Assembly (NCBI GenBank): GCA_016235665.1
Contig: JACRJI010000013.1
Location: 1-64,000 of the forward strand
Origin: a candidate division TA06 bacterium
Lineage (GTDB): Bacteria > Edwardsbacteria > AC1 > EtOH8
Reading direction: 5' to 3'
Length of the DNA stretch: 64,000 nt
Both the position numbers and the translations under genes were made by a program. Positions 3,085 through 45,198 of the stretch are shown here, one piece after another. The notes under the pieces are model-generated. The model saw nothing but the letters and a program-made list of their open reading frames with translations, ran no database searches and was not told the DNA's origin. Position 1 is the first letter of the stretch; each line of letters starts with the position of its first letter.

Positions 3085-5700
3085 TTGACAAGCAGACATT
3101 TTTTTCGCTTAGTACTGATCGCATCAATGCTATTGGGCTCCTCTTTTGCCCGGGGGCAGGAGGACATGGAACCAAGGATGCTGATCCGGGTGGACATCTC
3201 CAACCCCGCGGTCCTGCTGGCGGTCTCAAAACTGCCCCAGGGAATTGACGTGGCGGCCTGCCGTCCGGGCGAGTACATGGACATAGTGACCAAGCCGTCA
3301 CAGCTAAGCCTTTTTACCGGGGCCGGGATATCTTACCGGGAGCTGAAAGGTTTTGCCGGTGACATGTCCAAAGCATCATCTTCCAAGGCGGCCTACCATT
3401 CCTACGACGGCATCAGGGCCGAGCTGAAGCAGATAGCGCTGGATCATCCCACCATTACCAAGCTTGACACAGTGGCCGTGGCGGCCCAGGGGGGCAAGGT
3501 CTGGTGCCTTAAGGTTTCCAGCAACCCCACGGTGGACGACAATTCCCGCCAGGGCATCCTGGTCATGGGCAACCATCACGCCCGGGAGTGGATGACTCCG
3601 GAGATCTGCCTGTATATCGCCAATTACCTGACCAACAATTATAACCCGGCGGGCACGGATTCAATATCCACCATGGTCAAGACCAAGGAGATATACATCG
3701 TAACATCCGTCAATCCCGATGGTTTCATCTATGACCACGGCGGCACAAATGTGGTGCCGGCCTCCCCGACCCTTTTGTGGCGCAAGAACCGCCGGGTGAA
3801 CAGCCCCACCGTGTTCGGGGTGGACCTTAACCGGGGCTACGACGGCTCGGTGGACGGAGACATCCTGGGGGAATGGGGAGGATCCATCAACAGCTACACC
3901 AGCCCCGATTCCAGCAACGATGTTTTCTACGGCTTTTCACCCAGCGGCGAGCCGGAGCAGCAGGCCATGATGAAGATCGTTAAGGACCACAACATCGTAT
4001 TGTCCATTTCATACCATACATACAGCGAACTGGTGCTGTGGCCGCTGGGCTACGTGGACTCCACCGTCAAGCGGGCGCCGGACAGCCTGCAGCTGAGGTA
4101 CTTTGGCCAGCAGTCGGCCATCCGTACCAAAAGATACCGCAGCACGTTGGGCTACACCCCCCAGCAGTCCTCGGCCCTGTATCCCACCACCGGTGATTCC
4201 GACGGCTGGATCTACGGCTACGGCCTGACCCAGCTGGGGCGGGTGATATTCTCATACTGCGTGGAGGCGGACACCGCCTTTTACACCCCCGTTGCCCACA
4301 TCGACTCGGTCTGCCCCCAGACCCTAAAAGGCTTTATGTACCTGGCCATGCGCACCGACAGCATCGTCACCACTACTTCGCCGCCGCCTGTGCTGCCGCC
4401 TCCGGTCACCGGTGTAACTTTTCCCACAGCCAGCACCGATTACCGGTTAAGCTGGAGCCTGCCCAACCCGGCCTCCAATCCCACTGCCTACGAACTGCAG
4501 GAACTATCTGGATTCCAGTCCACCACCGACACGGTGGGGGCGGCCGCCAACCCCAACATCGCCCTGGACAGGTTCGTTTCCAACACGGTCCGGATGTACT
4601 CCGGCAGCCGCAGTTACCGCAGCGGAGTGGGCAACCAGTACAATATCGCCAGCATCACCACCACCAAGCCGTATCCGGTAACTTCGGCTAAGGATTCCTT
4701 CAGTTTTTACAGCTATCAGGGCATGACCACCTTTGACCGGATGTGGGTGGAGATCTCTCTCGACGGCCGGCAGTGGAATCTGCTGGGCAAGCTTTACCAG
4801 AACGCCTTGTCCTGGACCAAGCGGGCCTTTGCCATCGATTCCTCCGCCTATTTCGGCAAGTCGGTGTTCTTCCGCATCCGGCTGGTGGGCGACGGGGTGG
4901 CCGCCTCGGACAGCGTGTACATAGACGACATCAAACCGGTGGCGGCATTCACTTCAACCACCACGGTATCCAATACCATCACAGCCAGCAACTACCTGAT
5001 CACCGGCAAGACAGCCGGTTCCACCTATTATTATAGGGTGCGGGGGTTTAACGCCAAGCGGGGCTGGGGAGATTGGGACCAGCTTTACAAGGTCAATGTC
5101 ATTATGGGGCCAATGGCGGTGGAACTCTCGGCCTTTACCGCCCAGGCCGCCCCCGGCGGGATAAACCTTACCTGGCTGACCCAAAGCGAGAACGACTGCT
5201 ACCAGTGGGTCATAGAACGATCTGACCAGCCGGAGGCCGGATACATTGAGATAGCCCGGCAAAGCGGACAGGGGACCACCGCCAGTTCCTGCCAATATAA
5301 ATATTTTGACGCCAACCCGCCGGCCTTGGGCCAGCTTTATTACCGGCTGTTGGAACTGGATACCAAAGGCAACCAGACGGTCTACGGCCCGGTCAGCGTG
5401 TTATCGGCAGGGGATCGATCATTCAGCTTTGGACTCGGCTCCGCCAGCCCCAATCCGTTCAAACAAACAACCACGATCAATTATCAATTGTCAAAACCGG
5501 GAATGGCCGGCCTTAAGATTTACAACATCACCGGGCAGTTGATAAGGACATTGGATGAGGGTTACCGGATTTCGGGAGAGCATAGCATCAGTTGGGACGG
5601 CCGGGATGACAATGACCGCATGGTCAGAAACGGTGTCTATCTTTACCGTCTAAGTTCAGGGGACTTTTCCTCCTGCAAAAGATTGATCTTGCTGAGGTAG
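3085..5700 (+). CDS. Secreted M14 zinc carboxypeptidase with jelly-roll, FN3 and sorting domains
   Basis: TTG 3085 is preferred because an AGGTGG ribosome site sits 5 bases upstream; an in-frame GTG lies at 3076. A signal peptide (about 25 residues) precedes an M14 peptidase domain (about 95-420). The HARE zinc motif gives His165 and Glu168, a SYHTYSE motif gives the third ligand His311, and a CVEAD motif places the catalytic Glu at 394. It should remove C-terminal residues from peptides outside the cell. Beyond the enzyme is an FN3-like domain that looks interrupted by a jelly-roll insert (about 440-680), then the CYQWVIERS domain shared with the C25 protein, then the type IX-like tail (SPNPF, IYNITGQL, NGVYLYRL, final LLR). 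It appears monocistronic with its own promoter. It would complement the C25 and S8 endopeptidases encoded nearby. Confidence 0.9.
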   Translation: MTSRHFFRLVLIASMLLGSSFARGQEDMEPRMLIRVDISNPAVLLAVSKLPQGIDVAACRPGEYMDIVTKPSQLSLFTGAGISYRELKGFAGDMSKASSSKAAYHSYDGIRAELKQIALDHPTITKLDTVAVAAQGGKVWCLKVSSNPTVDDNSRQGILVMGNHHAREWMTPEICLYIANYLTNNYNPAGTDSISTMVKTKEIYIVTSVNPDGFIYDHGGTNVVPASPTLLWRKNRRVNSPTVFGVDLNRGYDGSVDGDILGEWGGSINSYTSPDSSNDVFYGFSPSGEPEQQAMMKIVKDHNIVLSISYHTYSELVLWPLGYVDSTVKRAPDSLQLRYFGQQSAIRTKRYRSTLGYTPQQSSALYPTTGDSDGWIYGYGLTQLGRVIFSYCVEADTAFYTPVAHIDSVCPQTLKGFMYLAMRTDSIVTTTSPPPVLPPPVTGVTFPTASTDYRLSWSLPNPASNPTAYELQELSGFQSTTDTVGAAANPNIALDRFVSNTVRMYSGSRSYRSGVGNQYNIASITTTKPYPVTSAKDSFSFYSYQGMTTFDRMWVEISLDGRQWNLLGKLYQNALSWTKRAFAIDSSAYFGKSVFFRIRLVGDGVAASDSVYIDDIKPVAAFTSTTTVSNTITASNYLITGKTAGSTYYYRVRGFNAKRGWGDWDQLYKVNVIMGPMAVELSAFTAQAAPGGINLTWLTQSENDCYQWVIERSDQPEAGYIEIARQSGQGTTASSCQYKYFDANPPALGQLYYRLLELDTKGNQTVYGPVSVLSAGDRSFSFGLGSASPNPFKQTTTINYQLSKPGMAGLKIYNITGQLIRTLDEGYRISGEHSISWDGRDDNDRMVRNGVYLYRLSSGDFSSCKRLILLR

Positions 5701-38933: not shown

Positions 38934-39398
38934 ATGAAATGTCCAGCATGCGGTTTTCCCAAAGACAAGGTAATAGACTCAAGGCTCTCCAAGGACGGGC
39001 AGGCCATCCGGCGCCGCCGTGAATGCCTGCAGTGCCGCCGCCGCTACACCACCTACGAGTACATCGAGTCCTCGCTGATGATCGTGAAGAAGGACGGGCG
39101 GCGCGAGCCCTTTGACCGCCAGAAGATCATGTCCGGGCTGCGCAAGGCCTGCGAGAAGCGTCCCATCGGCATCGACATATTGGAGCGCCTGGTGGACAAC
39201 ATCGAGAACGAGATCCAGGCCCAGGGGCACAGCGAGGTCCAGGCCCCGCTGATCGGCGAGATGGTGATGAACGCCCTGCAGAAGCTGGACGGGGTGGCCT
39301 ATGTCCGGTTCGCCTCGGTCTACCGTTCGTTCCGGGAGGCTGCGGATTTTGCCGAGGCGGCCAAGAGCTTTGCCCAGAAGAACGAACCCAAGAAGTAG
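38934..39398 (+). CDS. nrdR: Transcriptional repressor NrdR
   Basis: This ATP-cone repressor of ribonucleotide reductase genes has a zinc ribbon (CPACGFPKDKVIDSR, then CLQCRRRYTTYE; Cys3/6 and Cys31/34) and an ATP-cone domain (about 49-139, VKKDGRREPFDRQKI). The length (154) is standard. It senses dATP/ATP and binds NrdR boxes. It is followed by its own terminator and then by nrdD, the natural target. ATG 38934 starts directly at the zinc ribbon. Confidence 0.95.
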   Translation: MKCPACGFPKDKVIDSRLSKDGQAIRRRRECLQCRRRYTTYEYIESSLMIVKKDGRREPFDRQKIMSGLRKACEKRPIGIDILERLVDNIENEIQAQGHSEVQAPLIGEMVMNALQKLDGVAYVRFASVYRSFREAADFAEAAKSFAQKNEPKK

Positions 39399-39400
39399 TT

Positions 39401-39452
39401 AATCCGGGGTTTTTGACAGGATTTACATGATGCTTACAACCTCGGATTTTTT
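39401..39452 (+). terminator. Terminator between nrdR and nrdD
   Basis: An 11-bp stem with one G-U pair (aatccggggtt / aacctcggatt) encloses a 26-base loop and is followed by a T-rich run. The following 90 bases hold no clear promoter for nrdD, so partial read-through is possible. Confidence 0.7.
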
Positions 39453-39542
39453 ATTATTATTACATGAAACCAGGTCAGTCTTTTCCATTCGGTTCCGAAA
39501 TAATCAAAGAAAAAAGAAAATATATTCATTTTAAGGAGCACC

Positions 39543-41981
39543 ATGAACCCGCCCGATGCCGAAATGATCGCCAAAGGCCAATCGTCCCAGGACTCCTCCG
39601 AAGTCCCCAGGTTCCTGATGGTGGAGAATGCCAAGGACAAGCAGATCAACGCCGACCCGTTAATGCCCTTCAACGTGGTGCAGAAGCGCAGCGGGGAGAT
39701 CGTCAACTTTGACCGGCGCAAGATCGCCGAGGCCATCTTCAAGGCGGCCCAGGCGGTGGGCGGGGCCGACCATCTGCTGGCCGACGCCCTGGCCGAGCAG
39801 GTGGAACTGCTGCTTCACTCTGCCAAGGGAGGCCAGCACCTGCCCAACGTGGAGGAGATCCAGGACGCGGTGGAGAAGATCCTGATCGAGCGGGGCCACG
39901 CCAAGACCGCCAAGGCCTTCATCCTGTACCGCGACCAGCGCTCCAAGGTCCGCCGCCAGAACTTCAACATCCGCCAGGTGCAGATGGGCGAGGTGGTGCG
40001 GGACAACGACGCCACCGATCTGGCCCTGTTCATCCAGACCTCCGAGGACAACGTGGCCCAGTGGGACCGGGAGAAGATCGTCAAGGCCCTCAAAAAGGAG
40101 GCCGGGGTGGCCGAGGACATCGCCCAGAAGATAGCGGCCGAGGTGGAACAGCAGATCCTGGACGCCAAGGTCAAGCGCCTGACCTCGTCCCTGGTGCGCG
40201 AGCTGGTGGACGCCAAGCTGATAGAATACGGCCTGGAGGAGGCCCGCAAAAGGCACTCCCGGCTGGGCATGCCTCTGTACGACGTGGAGAAGGTGCTGAC
40301 CGACCGCAACCGGGAGAACGCCAACATCCCCCACAACCCGGAAGCCACCAACATGACCCTGGCCGAGACCATCAACAAGCAGTTTGCGCTGGCCCGGGTC
40401 TTCTCCACCGACGTGGCCGACGCCCACAGCCGGGGCGACATCCACCTCCACGACCTGGGGTTCATCAACCGGCCCTACTGCTCGGGACAGAGCCTGGAAT
40501 ACGTCAAGAAATTCGGCCTGAGCCTGCCCAACGCCCTGTCTATCGCCAAGCCGGCCAAGCACCCGGACACCCTGCTGGCCCACATGGTAAAAATGTCGGC
40601 CGCCCTGCAGGGGCACTTTGCCGGGGCCATCGGCTGGGACGCGGTCAACGTCTTCTTTGCCCCCTTCCTGGTGGGCATGTCCGACCGGGAGATCTCCCAG
40701 CTGGCCCAGATGATGATCTTTGAATACAGCCAGCAGTCGGTGGCCCGGGGCGGCCAGGCAATCTTCTCCGACCTCAACATCTATTGGGAGACCCCCAAGC
40801 ATTTTGAGAACGTTCCGGCCATCGGGCCGGGCGGCGAGTATACCGGCAAGAAGTACGGAGATTACCTTAAGGAGTCCCAGCGCTTTGCCTGGGCCCTGTT
40901 CGAGGTCTACAAGGGCGGCGACGGCACCGGACGGCCGTTCTTCTTCCCCAAGCCCCAGGCCCACATCACCGAAAAGTTTTTCCTCACCCCGGGGCACCAG
41001 GAATACCTGGAGCTGATCTGCTCGGTGGCCGCCGACAAGGGCAACACCTATTTCGTGTTCGACCGGGGAGAGACCGCCAAGATCTCCGAGTGCTGCCGGC
41101 TGGCCTTCAAATTAGACGACCGGGACCTGATGGACGCCAACACCCCCTGGAAGATGCGCTATTCGGCCCTGCAGAACATCACCGTCAACCTGCCCCGGAT
41201 AGCCTACCTGGCCAAGGGCGACACCAACCAGCTCTACAAGAAGATCGACGAGTTCCTGCACCTGACCGTCAAAGGCCACCAGCAGAAGCGCAAGTTCATA
41301 GAAAAACTGATGAACCTGAAGGACCAGGGGCCTTTAGCCCTTTTGGCCATGGAGAAGGACGGCGAGCCGTATCTTAGAATGGGCCGGGTCACCTTCCTGA
41401 TCGGGATGCTGGGGCTGAACGAAATGGTGCAGCACCACATGGGGCAGGAAATGCACGAGAGCGAGGAGGCCTACAAGTTCGGCCTGAAGATGATAGCCTA
41501 CATGCACCTCAAGATCAAGGAACTGGCCAAGGAATACGGGATGAAGTTCGTGCTGGAGCAGACCCCGGCCGAGAGCACTGCCTTCCGATTTGCCAAGCTG
41601 GACATGCAGCAGTTCACCAAGGACGCCGAGAAGGTGGTCAAGGGCAGCGTCAAGGACGGCACGGTTTACTACACCAACTCCACCTATCTCAATGTCGCCT
41701 ACCAGATGAATCCGATAGACCGGGTGAAACAGGAGGGCAAGTTCCACGACATGATAGAGGCCGGGGCCCTGACCCACATCTGGCTGGCGGATTCCCACCC
41801 CACCCCCAGCTCCATCGCCAATTTCGTGGTCAAGTCGTTCCGCCAGACCCGCAACGCCCAGATCGCCTTCTCACCGGAGTTCACTACCTGCAACAGTTGC
41901 GGTAAGGTGTATAGGGGATTGAAGGATGAGTGTCCCAACTGCAGCCGGAAGGCGGTAGAGGGGATAAAGAAGATCAAATAG
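39543..41981 (+). CDS. nrdD: Class III (anaerobic) ribonucleoside-triphosphate reductase large subunit, lacking its glycyl-radical tail
   Basis: NrdD reduces NTPs to dNTPs with a thiyl radical generated by a C-terminal glycyl radical. Two ATP-cone regions (about 40-150 and 160-270) precede the ten-stranded barrel. Candidate active-site cysteines are Cys313 in RPYCSGQ and Cys517/518 in SECCRLA. The C-terminal zinc site is complete (Cys783, 786, 797, 800). In canonical NrdD a TRVTGY-type glycyl-radical segment of about 30 residues follows the zinc site. Here only 12 residues remain (ending VEGIKKIK), and no frame downstream of the stop encodes the missing motif. That segment is instead found on the separate protein at 43674. 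Redoxin and nrdG genes lie downstream. Confidence 0.93.
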   Translation: MNPPDAEMIAKGQSSQDSSEVPRFLMVENAKDKQINADPLMPFNVVQKRSGEIVNFDRRKIAEAIFKAAQAVGGADHLLADALAEQVELLLHSAKGGQHLPNVEEIQDAVEKILIERGHAKTAKAFILYRDQRSKVRRQNFNIRQVQMGEVVRDNDATDLALFIQTSEDNVAQWDREKIVKALKKEAGVAEDIAQKIAAEVEQQILDAKVKRLTSSLVRELVDAKLIEYGLEEARKRHSRLGMPLYDVEKVLTDRNRENANIPHNPEATNMTLAETINKQFALARVFSTDVADAHSRGDIHLHDLGFINRPYCSGQSLEYVKKFGLSLPNALSIAKPAKHPDTLLAHMVKMSAALQGHFAGAIGWDAVNVFFAPFLVGMSDREISQLAQMMIFEYSQQSVARGGQAIFSDLNIYWETPKHFENVPAIGPGGEYTGKKYGDYLKESQRFAWALFEVYKGGDGTGRPFFFPKPQAHITEKFFLTPGHQEYLELICSVAADKGNTYFVFDRGETAKISECCRLAFKLDDRDLMDANTPWKMRYSALQNITVNLPRIAYLAKGDTNQLYKKIDEFLHLTVKGHQQKRKFIEKLMNLKDQGPLALLAMEKDGEPYLRMGRVTFLIGMLGLNEMVQHHMGQEMHESEEAYKFGLKMIAYMHLKIKELAKEYGMKFVLEQTPAESTAFRFAKLDMQQFTKDAEKVVKGSVKDGTVYYTNSTYLNVAYQMNPIDRVKQEGKFHDMIEAGALTHIWLADSHPTPSSIANFVVKSFRQTRNAQIAFSPEFTTCNSCGKVYRGLKDECPNCSRKAVEGIKKIK

Positions 41982-42172
41982 ACTTCTGACTGTAGACAGT
42001 AGTCACTATCCAGTAGCCGGTAGACTGGTAACCAGTCATTGCAAGGGCGGTTCAAGATCTGGCAGTCGAAGCAAGCGGTACTAAATAGCTGGCTATTGGT
42101 GTATGATTGATGAGTGAAAAAATTAGGCGGAAGTATAATTAATTTTCAAATATTTTGAAAAGGAAGAATGTA

Positions 42173-42388
42173 ATGAGTCATCAAGTAAAATTTTCATTGC
42201 CAGAACGGGAACTTGGTAAAGCGGATATTGAGTTTAGTGTGAAGAAAAATGGACAACAATTAGGGACGTTAAAAGTGTCAAAAGGTTCATTAGTTTGGGT
42301 TACGAAAAACTCTCAGTATGGGCATAAGATGCGTTGGGATGACTTTGAAGAAATGATGATGAAAAATGGGGAGAAAGAGAAGGCTTAA
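42173..42388 (+). CDS. Small conserved protein of unknown function
   Basis: An AAGGAAG site lies 6 bases before ATG 42173. The 71-residue product (SLPERELGKADIEF, KNGQQLGTLKVSKGS, VWVTKNS, MRWDDFEEMM) resembles a small family of bacterial proteins with a GxLxVSKGxxxW core, predicted to be a compact beta-rich domain. Function unknown. AT-richer than nrdD. It lies between nrdD and the separate glycyl-radical protein. Confidence 0.6.
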   Translation: MSHQVKFSLPERELGKADIEFSVKKNGQQLGTLKVSKGSLVWVTKNSQYGHKMRWDDFEEMMMKNGEKEKA

Positions 42389-42434
42389 TATCCTTTCTTG
42401 TCATTGGTAATGAGAAAACAAACACCGGTGGTGG

Positions 42435-42461
42435 GTAAGGACACGATTCATCGTGCCCCAA
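42435..42461. repeat. Variable-core palindrome, copy 1
   Basis: gtaagg, then an inverted repeat (ggacacga/tcgtgccc), then ccccaa. It shares its outer frame, but not its core, with the copies at 51531, 56772, 56807 and 56834. Confidence 0.6.
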
Positions 42462-42604
42462 CGGTGGTTGCAAACAGGAAGCTGTGACATGAAAACTCTA
42501 AACCGGCAACGGTAACCCCCAATCCGGCAACGGCTAAAACCCTTTTCCCTTCCCCCGCATCTAAATTAATTGTAGTTAGATTGTAACAATATTATTGGTG
42601 AAAG

Positions 42605-43663
42605 ATGAATAGTAAAGAAATTCAACCATGGGTGCCGTTTAGTTTCTACGATTTTTTTGGTTATTTATTCCCCGGTATTTTATTTGCCACTTCTGCGTTG
42701 ATACTTTTCAAATGGTCTTTTATAAATAGTAGCGTTATAGATACAATATGGAATGTATGTGAAAATAAATCATTTGTCATTGGTTTGGTTTTAATAACTA
42801 TGTCGTTGGTGTTAATATATATAGTTGGTCATATCATAGCTATTATTAGTTCGATATTCTATGGCAGTATTTTAATATCCTCAATACTTGGTTATCCATA
42901 CAAACATGTTTTAAACATTAAAGAAACCGATGGTAAACAATATTCAAGATCAACCCATTTGTGTTCAATTTTCTTTTTCAATTTATGGTTAATTTCACCA
43001 ATATTATTTTCCGCTTCGGTATTCAAAATAATTACATACGCGTTTCTTTTAGTAATTACCATTTTGTTTTTTATAAGATTTATTGTAACTGTATTTGATG
43101 AAATCAATAAACGTGAAGAATTTGTTAAATTTACAAATAAAAAAATTATAAAATCAATCATTAACTTTAGCCTTTATTATCCAATATATTACTTGGCATA
43201 TGTATTAAGAATAGGAATATCAATGATAAGAAAATTAATAGCGATAGATGTACCTTTCCCTAAAGAATTTATTGACAATTACGAAACCTATTTTGAAGAA
43301 AAGTTTAATATAGATTATAGAAAAGCCGGTTCAGAAAATTACTGGCTCACTAATTTTCAGGTATCGAATAAATGCCCAGAAAATTCACTTTCAATACGTA
43401 CTTGGTTGCACATTTATGGGTTTCTTAGGAATATTTCTTCTGCATCTTATTTTGTATGTTTTTTATTGGCAGTTTTATTTTATTTTATTGGGAATAACGA
43501 TGTTGTTAAGATTGATATTTTCAAGTGGCAGCTAGGTTTAACTTATGTGATTGCTATAGTATTAGGCTTAGGTTACTGGAAAATATTTCACACGTATTAT
43601 ACTAAAGGTATTATCCGTTCATTCTATGTGTCAGTATCGGAAGAAAAAACAAAGAAAATATAA
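42605..43663 (+). CDS. Multi-span membrane protein of unknown function, strongly AT-rich
   Basis: The 352-residue product begins soluble (EIQPWVPFSFYDFFGYLFPG) and has about five predicted membrane helices (about 18-38, 58-85, 125-165 as two, 285-305, 315-335), with a soluble region between about 190 and 270. The opening FYDFFGYLFPG resembles other uncharacterised membrane proteins often seen beside mobile or defence genes, but I cannot name a family. The gene is among the most AT-rich in the window. It separates nrdD from its glycyl-radical partner, and its stop is 10 bases before that gene. Confidence 0.7.
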   Translation: MNSKEIQPWVPFSFYDFFGYLFPGILFATSALILFKWSFINSSVIDTIWNVCENKSFVIGLVLITMSLVLIYIVGHIIAIISSIFYGSILISSILGYPYKHVLNIKETDGKQYSRSTHLCSIFFFNLWLISPILFSASVFKIITYAFLLVITILFFIRFIVTVFDEINKREEFVKFTNKKIIKSIINFSLYYPIYYLAYVLRIGISMIRKLIAIDVPFPKEFIDNYETYFEEKFNIDYRKAGSENYWLTNFQVSNKCPENSLSIRTWLHIYGFLRNISSASYFVCFLLAVLFYFIGNNDVVKIDIFKWQLGLTYVIAIVLGLGYWKIFHTYYTKGIIRSFYVSVSEEKTKKI

Positions 43664-43673
43664 AGGAGAATCC

Positions 43674-43961
43674 ATGGAACTGCAGGAACTGAAAGACAAA
43701 CTGACCTCGGAAAAACAGTCCTTTGAATTCAACGAAGAGGACGGAGGGGTCTACATCCGCAACAAGCGCTACGACACCAAGATCCACGCCAGTTACGAGG
43801 CTATCGAAAAGCACGATTGGAGCACCATCAAGGCCCAGACCGTGGCCGGGCGCGACGTCAACCACATCACCCGGGTCACCGGATACTTCACCATCGTGGA
43901 AGGCTGGAACAAAGGCAAGATCGGGGAACTGCGGGACAGGTACAAGTCGCAGGTTAAGTAG
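43674..43961 (+). CDS. Stand-alone glycyl-radical domain protein, predicted partner of truncated NrdD
   Basis: The ATG follows AAGGAG by 5 bases. The 95-residue product ends with a sequence matching the tail of class III ribonucleotide reductases: THITRVTGY-like (here NHITRVTGYF, Gly70 the predicted radical site) followed by EGWNKGKIGELRDRYKS. In canonical NrdD this segment directly follows the zinc site, which is exactly where the NrdD at 39543 stops. The first 60 or so residues (ELQELKDKLTSEKQ, GGVYIRNKRYDTKI, KHDWSTIKAQ) are not part of canonical NrdD and may dock it to the large subunit. NrdG, encoded two genes downstream, would form the glycyl radical. The motif match is directly visible; partnership with NrdD is inference. 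A repair-type spare part, as YfiD is for pyruvate formate-lyase, is the alternative. Confidence 0.8.
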   Translation: MELQELKDKLTSEKQSFEFNEEDGGVYIRNKRYDTKIHASYEAIEKHDWSTIKAQTVAGRDVNHITRVTGYFTIVEGWNKGKIGELRDRYKSQVK

Positions 43962-43974
43962 ACCTAACCCCCGA

Positions 43975-43999
43975 CCCCCTTCCCCGCAAGGGAAGGGGG
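43975..43999. repeat. GC-rich inverted repeat, family A
   Basis: Perfect 10-bp arms cccccttccc / gggaaggggg with a 5-base loop, between the glycyl-radical gene and the redoxin gene. Related copies lie at 45350, 51433, 52921 and 63511. Confidence 0.6.
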
Positions 44000-44004
44000 C
44001 AATT

Positions 44005-44337
44005 ATGATAAAAGAAAAGAGAAACGGAGCTATGGAAATAAAAGTATTCGGGCGGCCCAGCTGCCAGGTCTGCAAGCAGGCCATTGAAAAGATAGACTAT
44101 TTTCTGGACAAGTGGAAATACACCGAACAGGTGCCGGTCAACTATTTTGACATGGACACCATGGACGGCCTGGCCGAGGGGGCCTTTTACGAGGTCTCCG
44201 ACATACCCACCGTGGTGCTGGAGGAGAAAAAGGAGGAGCTGGACCGCTGGGTCAAGCGGCCGCCGCTTTCCAAGGAACTAAAACCGCATCTGGACAAGTC
44301 CTTCAAAGGCGCAGCCGGCCCGGATGAGGAGGACTGA
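44005..44337 (+). CDS. Glutaredoxin/NrdH-like redoxin
   Basis: A thioredoxin-fold protein of about 101-110 residues, with an active-site CQVC (Cys20/Cys23 from this start) after KVFGRPS, and a cis-Pro motif DIPTVVL. The C-terminus is long, charged and not typical of glutaredoxins. ATG 44032 would start at the usual MEIKVFG but has no properly spaced ribosome site; ATG 44005 has GGAAGGGGG 5 bases upstream. Class III reductases that do not use formate take electrons from NrdH or thioredoxin-like proteins, so this is the likely reductant of the split NrdD. It lies between the glycyl-radical gene and nrdG. Confidence 0.8.
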   Translation: MIKEKRNGAMEIKVFGRPSCQVCKQAIEKIDYFLDKWKYTEQVPVNYFDMDTMDGLAEGAFYEVSDIPTVVLEEKKEELDRWVKRPPLSKELKPHLDKSFKGAAGPDEED

Positions 44338-44475
44338 ATACAGTTGTGATTCTATTTACAATTGTGATACATTGGTGAATTCATTTGGTATGCAATTGTT
44401 GGCCAAGGGTATCACCACCGTATAACCATTGTATTCACCGCTGCCGGGACATGCATTAATTCTCCGTAAGGTAAA

Positions 44476-45198
44476 ATGGAAATAAAAGGGTTTATAGAGA
44501 CATCGCTAATTGACTGGGACGGCAAGCTGGTCTCAGTCTTTTTTTTGCCCGGCTGCAATTTCCGCTGCCCCTTCTGCCACAACCACCAGCTATGGAAGGA
44601 GCCGCAGAAGGTGGAGACCGTTCCCTGGCAGAAGGTCAGCGATTTCCTTAAAGGCAAGCAGGGCTGGATAGACGGGGTGGTGATCACCGGCGGCGAGCCC
44701 ACCGTGCATGATGACCTGCCCCAGTTCACCCGAACCATACGGGAGATGGGCCTGCTGGTAAAGCTGGACACCAACGGCGCCAATCCCGAGATGCTGAAGA
44801 TGCTGCTGGACAAAAAACTGGTGGACTACGTGGCCATGGACCTGAAGGCCACCCTGGATCCCATTTACAGCCAGGCGGCCGGGACCAAGGTGAACCTGGA
44901 CGACATCAAGCGCTCGATCGAAATACTGATGACCGGCAAGACGGACTACGAGTTCCGGACCACTTTGGTGCCGTTGTTCCACAGTTTGGAGAACGTCAAA
45001 CAGATGGGCAAAAGCATCAAGGGGGCCAAAAAGTGGGTACTGCAGCAGTTCGTGCCCCAGAACTCGGAAACGGCCATGCTCAAGAACGTCTGGCCCTACG
45101 CCGAGGAGTACCTGATGAAGATGCAGCAGGAGGGAAGCAAGTGGGTGGAGATCTGCATCCTGCGGGGAATAAGCGAGATCGCCGCCGACCAGGTCTGA
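44476..45198 (+). CDS. nrdG: Anaerobic ribonucleotide reductase-activating radical SAM protein
   Basis: The radical SAM cluster motif is CNFRCPFC (Cys27, Cys31, Cys34), followed by a GGEPT SAM-binding motif and a partial TIM barrel. The opening GFIETSLIDWDGKLVSVFFLPGC is typical of the NrdG2-type activases (240 residues). It cleaves SAM reductively to abstract hydrogen from the glycyl-radical Gly. In this locus the target Gly appears to be on the separate 95-residue protein. It is last in the nrd group and ends before a converging methionine-gene operon. Confidence 0.9.
   Translation: MEIKGFIETSLIDWDGKLVSVFFLPGCNFRCPFCHNHQLWKEPQKVETVPWQKVSDFLKGKQGWIDGVVITGGEPTVHDDLPQFTRTIREMGLLVKLDTNGANPEMLKMLLDKKLVDYVAMDLKATLDPIYSQAAGTKVNLDDIKRSIEILMTGKTDYEFRTTLVPLFHSLENVKQMGKSIKGAKKWVLQQFVPQNSETAMLKNVWPYAEEYLMKMQQEGSKWVEICILRGISEIAADQV

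Follow-up and report, generated by a model that had tools for sequence, protein, structure and literature searches.

The question raised by this locus is how a class III ribonucleotide reductase (RNR) can function when its large chain ends before the glycine that bears the radical. Class III RNR is the source of deoxynucleotides for many strict anaerobes. The locus lies at positions 38,934 to 45,198 of a 64,000-nucleotide stretch of DNA from a candidate division TA06 bacterium (assembly GCA_016235665.1, contig JACRJI010000013.1, positions 1 to 64,000; hereafter the window), and encodes an NrdD of 812 residues, a separate protein of 95 residues and the activase NrdG. The sole RNR of the cell is very probably a two-chain class III enzyme, in which NrdG makes a radical at Gly70 of the small protein, and the small protein acts as a docked, exchangeable subunit that most likely originated as a spare part. 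An earlier interpretation of the letters of this DNA (the sequence-only reading) had proposed a split enzyme with the radical delivered in trans. Delivery in trans is supported by the results described below, whereas splitting is probably not how the locus arose.

The end of NrdD and the protein that carries its glycyl segment

The nrdD gene (39543..41981, plus strand) encodes a protein that matches PF13597 over positions 1-539 of 562 (445 bits) and TIGR02487 with a score over the cut-off (382 bits), and contains two PF03477 stretches. Like the canonical class III RNRs of T4, T. maritima, Prevotella copri and S. thermophilus, for which structures are available, the window enzyme has ATP cones, a barrel with finger-loop cysteine, a four-Cys zinc site and an NrdG partner. 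The finger-loop residues C517 and C518 (ECCR, codons at 41091..41096) are the expected radical acceptor pair; the equivalent SCCR sequence of T. maritima NrdD is essential, its mutants being inactive (PMC4493059). The zinc site (C783, C786, C797 and C800, 41889..41942) aligns with that of relatives that carry the glycyl domain in cis. The one feature absent from the window NrdD is the radical glycine, which is located on the same chain in the canonical enzymes (PMC9669993, PMC9531940), but on the 95-residue protein in the window.

In the cis relatives the radical glycine is residue 13 past the last zinc Cys (CGSxxVDGITRVTG). In the window NrdD the last zinc Cys is followed by 12 residues (SRKAVEGIKKIK) and then by TAG (41979..41981), codon 13 being the stop codon. 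The NrdDs of all seven relatives from the same family end at the same point (GI[KRE][KR]IK, then stop), and in the alignment the last residue of the family NrdDs falls one column before the glycine. The sequence-only reading, which described an 812-residue NrdD with ATP cones, barrel and zinc site ending 12 residues past the last zinc Cys, is therefore accurate for this chain.

It also assigned the missing tail of NrdD to the 95-residue protein (43674..43961, plus strand), and the profile searches agree: this protein matches PF13597 at positions 532-560 (25.5 bits, E 7e-6; under the Pfam cut-off of 26.2 bits) and TIGR02487 at positions 547-580. PF13597 (NRDD) is its sole Pfam match, indicating that the glycyl segment is not homologous to that of the pyruvate formate-lyase (PFL) type. 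The Gly70 codon (43881..43883, within RVTGYF) marks the expected radical site, and this glycine is invariant in 21 freestanding homologues. Residues 1-58 (43674..43847) form an N-terminal domain that is not present in cis NrdDs. When the small protein is modelled alone by AlphaFold2, this domain is predicted to be ordered, with a helix, three strands and two helices (predicted local distance difference test, pLDDT, 80-86), and residues 71-95 are unordered (46-52). A fold search with the small protein gives no match in the Protein Data Bank (PDB) better than E 0.37. The complex was modelled with the relative G007, in which the two genes are in frame, by reading nrdD (minus the ATP cones) through a spacer of about 376 codons into the small gene as one chain. 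In this model the spacer is disordered (about 25), the glycyl segment is predicted as strand-strand-helix with values of 69-89, and the best PDB matches are class III RNRs.

The probable sole ribonucleotide reductase of the cell

When the genome (2.7 Mb in 16 contigs, with a completeness of 100%) is searched in full in six frames, PF13597 is detected at two places only, nrdD and the 95-residue gene; the second, full-length nrdD that would have overturned the sequence-only reading is not found. Neither a class I or II RNR nor a PFL-like enzyme is detected in this complete genome, and the two-chain pair must for this reason be the RNR of the cell. Because known class III chemistry needs a radical glycine and the truncated NrdD has none, the small protein must supply it, as far as the established mechanism applies. 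Class I and II RNRs were searched for in 21 genomes, ten of them from the window family, and are present in G151 only. Genomes in which NrdD is truncated and no further RNR is detected retain the standalone protein, which is indirect evidence that it can serve a chain without a glycyl domain.

The pair of truncated NrdD and small protein is present in eight members of the window family, the named assemblies of which are assigned to Candidatus Edwardsbacteria or UBP2. Seven independent assemblies (G001, G002, G003, G006, G007, G008 and G009) agree with the window in where NrdD ends and in encoding the small protein; in G003 and G006 parts of the locus are on different contigs. The identical NrdD end in independent assemblies rules out a frameshift or an assembly error cutting nrdD, which was the other event considered fatal to the sequence-only reading. 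The small gene is under strong purifying selection (dN/dS about 0.1): it differs between G000 and G002 by 8 synonymous and 0 nonsynonymous changes, and the comparison with G001 gives dS 0.39 and dN 0.039, with residues 59-95 free of amino-acid change.

The genes lie on one strand (plus) in the order nrdR, nrdD, spacer, 95-residue gene, redoxin gene and nrdG. The open reading frame (ORF) of nrdR (38934..39398) encodes the regulator of RNR genes, and this neighbourhood is retained in relatives. Downstream of the small gene, as the sequence-only reading had stated, lie the genes of a redoxin (44032..44337; CQVC, with weak glutaredoxin and thioredoxin matches; retained in relatives) and of the radical-SAM activase NrdG (44476..45198; NrdG2 type, TIGR02495 202 bits against a cut-off of 131). 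The spacer of 1.7 kb between nrdD and the small gene is AT-rich, with 24-37% GC as compared with about 50-65% on its flanks. It contains ORFs of 77 and 352 residues (42100..43670), which have no Pfam or NCBIfam match and are not conserved in the spacers of relatives; the 352-residue one is membrane-like and has no match among the relatives' loci.

We infer the following course of the reaction from the established class III mechanism. NrdG would abstract a hydrogen atom from Gly70 of the 95-residue protein, and the C-terminal loop and helix of this protein would dock into the NrdD barrel in the manner of the cis domain of other class III RNRs. The Gly70 radical would then be passed to the finger-loop pair by hydrogen abstraction from C517/C518, and nucleotide reduction would begin, with the redoxin as the probable reductant for NrdD. 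The N-terminal 58 residues form a separate domain, which probably keeps the subunit bound to NrdD, presents it to NrdG, or both; docking by the first 60 or so residues, as already proposed from the sequence, is plausible. As a conjecture, exchangeability may confer an advantage, with oxygen cleavage costing a 10-kDa part and not a 90-kDa enzyme.

Origin of the glycyl subunit and alternative explanations

The small protein of the window belongs to a FREESTANDING family and is more than a tail cut off NrdD. Proteins that combine the N-terminal domain with the glycyl segment are encoded in G078, G219, G348, G364, G151, G076, G125, G247, G375 and G288. The freestanding protein accompanies a full-length NrdD in genomes of several bacterial families (G078, G387-G389, G402, G076, G125, G247 and G375) and in a Thermoplasmata archaeon; in the archaeon it adjoins NrdG, and the archaeal NrdD has its own glycyl domain. 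Because intact NrdD is also found alongside members of this freestanding family, which has an N-terminal domain of its own, the small protein appears to be a spare part that came to replace a lost cis domain. It would have become obligatory once NrdD lost its own glycyl loop.

The GTDB family f70, of which 20 genomes were examined, contains forms at several stages of such a process. Five genomes (G078, G387, G388, G389 and G402) encode a full-length NrdD and, on other contigs, the standalone protein. The NrdD stop of G391 and G393 is followed in frame by a degenerate cis glycyl remnant (SITTESE, stop, PSKVAGSNKGKKGELNDQLRGGIE, stop and SITTESK, stop, PSKVPGLNGGFRGELKDRFRSGIE, stop, respectively), and the standalone copy is retained in both. 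A remnant is also seen in G401 (DGITKVTS, stop, FSRISGWNSGKKAKLDDRFGSDV, stop), the assembly of which is 57% complete and yields no standalone copy. G386, G219 and G348 retain the standalone protein and show no cis remnant, and in G400 the cis domain is present and no standalone copy is found. Such stages are the traces expected if a spare part took over. Truncated forms are scattered among cis forms in the NrdD tree: they comprise the window family, parts of f70, G364, which is sister to the cis forms of G095 and G235, and G151, which is placed with G247 and G375. The archaeal loci L037 and L038 represent one more separate place of truncation.

Simple gene fission gives the same working enzyme with another origin: nrdD would have been broken at the glycine, the downstream piece would have become a second gene, and the 58 N-terminal residues would have been added later. 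The position of the small gene downstream of nrdD in the window is compatible with this history, and fission is likely for a short type described below, in which a glycyl ORF of 50-80 residues overlaps or directly follows nrdD. For the window locus, however, fission is unlikely. The N-terminal domain is common to the standalone proteins of organisms with intact NrdD and to archaeal and virus-contig proteins, and relatives differ in how far the small gene lies from nrdD (about 1.1 to 2.8 kb). In its glycyl segment, the window family is also closer to the f70 standalone proteins (76%) than to the cis domains of f70 (67%) or G143 (62%), a comparison over 29 residues only. Of the proposal of a split enzyme, radical delivery in trans stands, in view of the lack of a second nrdD, another RNR, a PFL-like client or an assembly error, the purifying selection and the series of decaying cis domains, while a split is probably not how this locus came about, since the family coexists with intact NrdD.

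Two points weigh against a working two-chain enzyme. No NrdD and no class I or II RNR is found in G004 and G005 of the window family, the latter an assembly of 9 contigs with a rated completeness of 100%; either such searches can miss an RNR that is present, or arrangements of another kind exist. In addition, the cis glycyl domains of relatives in the alignment used for the model support the trans one, such that the gain of order in the one-chain model is a sign of consistency and not independent proof. The two genomes without a detected RNR of any class are also what would favour a decaying nrdD with a remnant, or a spare part for another client, with deoxynucleotides taken from the surroundings or made by an undetected RNR. 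This explanation is very improbable, because in eight genomes the two genes are either strictly conserved or under purifying selection, the window genome has no PFL-like client, and the locus still encodes the finger loop, the zinc site, the redoxin and NrdG. Rejoining of the pieces into an ordinary NrdD by an intron, trans-splicing or a split intein, for which phage nrdD genes with inteins and introns offer a precedent (PMC3653736), is hardly credible, because no Rfam match is found in 41800-43800, NrdD has a clean end where the glycine would stand, the small protein opens with a conserved domain of its own, relatives have different spacers, and the f70 pieces lie on different contigs.

Distribution of separate glycyl domains and their meaning

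Among 386 bacterial genomes surveyed, PF13597 is matched in 152, and about 50 of the NrdDs stop within model positions 525-540. The sequence-only reading had suggested a search for NrdDs without the C-terminal motif and a test of whether a small glycyl protein is always encoded near them; a truncated NrdD with a separate glycyl ORF is found in 52 genomes of 30 families among the fetched loci, a count that gives no frequency, since the loci were picked for their truncated look. Most of these are of the simpler kind, which is common, with a glycyl ORF of 50-80 residues that overlaps nrdD or directly follows it, before nrdG. Separately encoded NrdD glycyl domains occur in dozens of bacterial families, and the window layout is not unique. 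No published description of a separate NrdD glycyl domain of either type was found in the literature searched, which lies mostly outside subscription papers, and this absence is not proof.

Several loci divide the enzyme in other ways. In the archaeal loci L037 and L038 the break falls inside the zinc ribbon, NrdD keeping one CxxC and the small protein the second, and a single zinc site would need to be formed by the two chains together; both archaea also have a second NrdD. In family f11 (L053, L135 and L136) NrdD is divided further upstream, and the second piece of 180 residues contains the zinc site and the glycyl segment. The separate glycyl segment is fused to a redoxin domain in one frame of 162-179 residues in L068 and L069. 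In L052 (G022; minus strand, 4228-5316 on that strand) the glycyl ORF is interrupted right after the RVVG codons and the remainder lies about 860 nt further on, with no Rfam intron match. Two extra glycyl-only ORFs are present in G044 (contigs C83 and C68; L040 and L041) besides the one adjacent to nrdD.

The freestanding proteins extend to probable phages. In an IMG/VR scan, about 20 predicted virus contigs (within L189-L213) encode freestanding NrdD-type glycyl proteins, and in some of them the neighbouring genes encode replicative helicase, replication initiation, DNA polymerase or terminase-like proteins. When 17 of the contigs are searched whole, 15 contain the small protein only, G418 also contains NrdD, and one has no match; these records may be fragments, and host-derived stretches are possible in individual contigs. 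The standalone glycyl genes of the virus contigs are candidate auxiliary metabolic genes. PHROGs contains no family for the window protein or its virus-contig relative L201. A search of phage records gives one match without value for the window protein and two records with the short type, and a search of plasmid records for glycyl proteins gives none.

The closest known counterparts are YfiD/GrcA of E. coli and Y06I of phage T4, which resemble the window family in being small freestanding glycyl proteins with an extra N-terminal part, in accompanying a full-length enzyme in some genomes and in occurring in phages (PMC8683613). Unlike YfiD/GrcA, the window protein has an NrdD-type glycyl segment, an RNR as its probable client and an N-terminal domain that is predicted to be folded, that of YfiD being disordered. 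Moreover, YfiD/GrcA is a repair part, whereas the protein of the window lineage appears to be obligatory, with no full-length client alongside. The class II RNR NrdJa-NrdJb of Pseudomonas aeruginosa is likewise distributed over two chains that are both required, but NrdJb mediates disulfide exchange and does not carry the radical. Phage nrdD genes interrupted by introns or inteins have their coding sequence in several pieces, as the window does, but there either the pieces are joined again or the break lies within the body of the gene, and no freestanding glycyl subunit is described for them (PMC3653736).

According to Andorfer et al., the validated spare parts are YfiD and Y06I only, both of which serve PFL, and others are thought possible (PMC8683613). 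The window protein is a concrete candidate for such a spare part beyond PFL among glycyl radical enzymes. It is likely that bacteria, archaea and phages have a family of autonomous glycyl radical cofactors dedicated to class III RNR, which began as spare parts for oxygen-damaged NrdD and repeatedly became the only radical carrier, the cis domain then decaying. Family f70 may offer natural snapshots of a repair part turning into an obligatory subunit. For annotation, the small protein scores below the Pfam cut-off and truncated NrdDs are liable to be taken for broken genes. With a two-chain NrdD, mutation, labelling and mixing can be applied to the radical chain and the catalytic chain independently. 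If the radical subunit is separate and exchangeable, the activation of class III RNR, its damage by oxygen and its regulation would have to be thought of differently.
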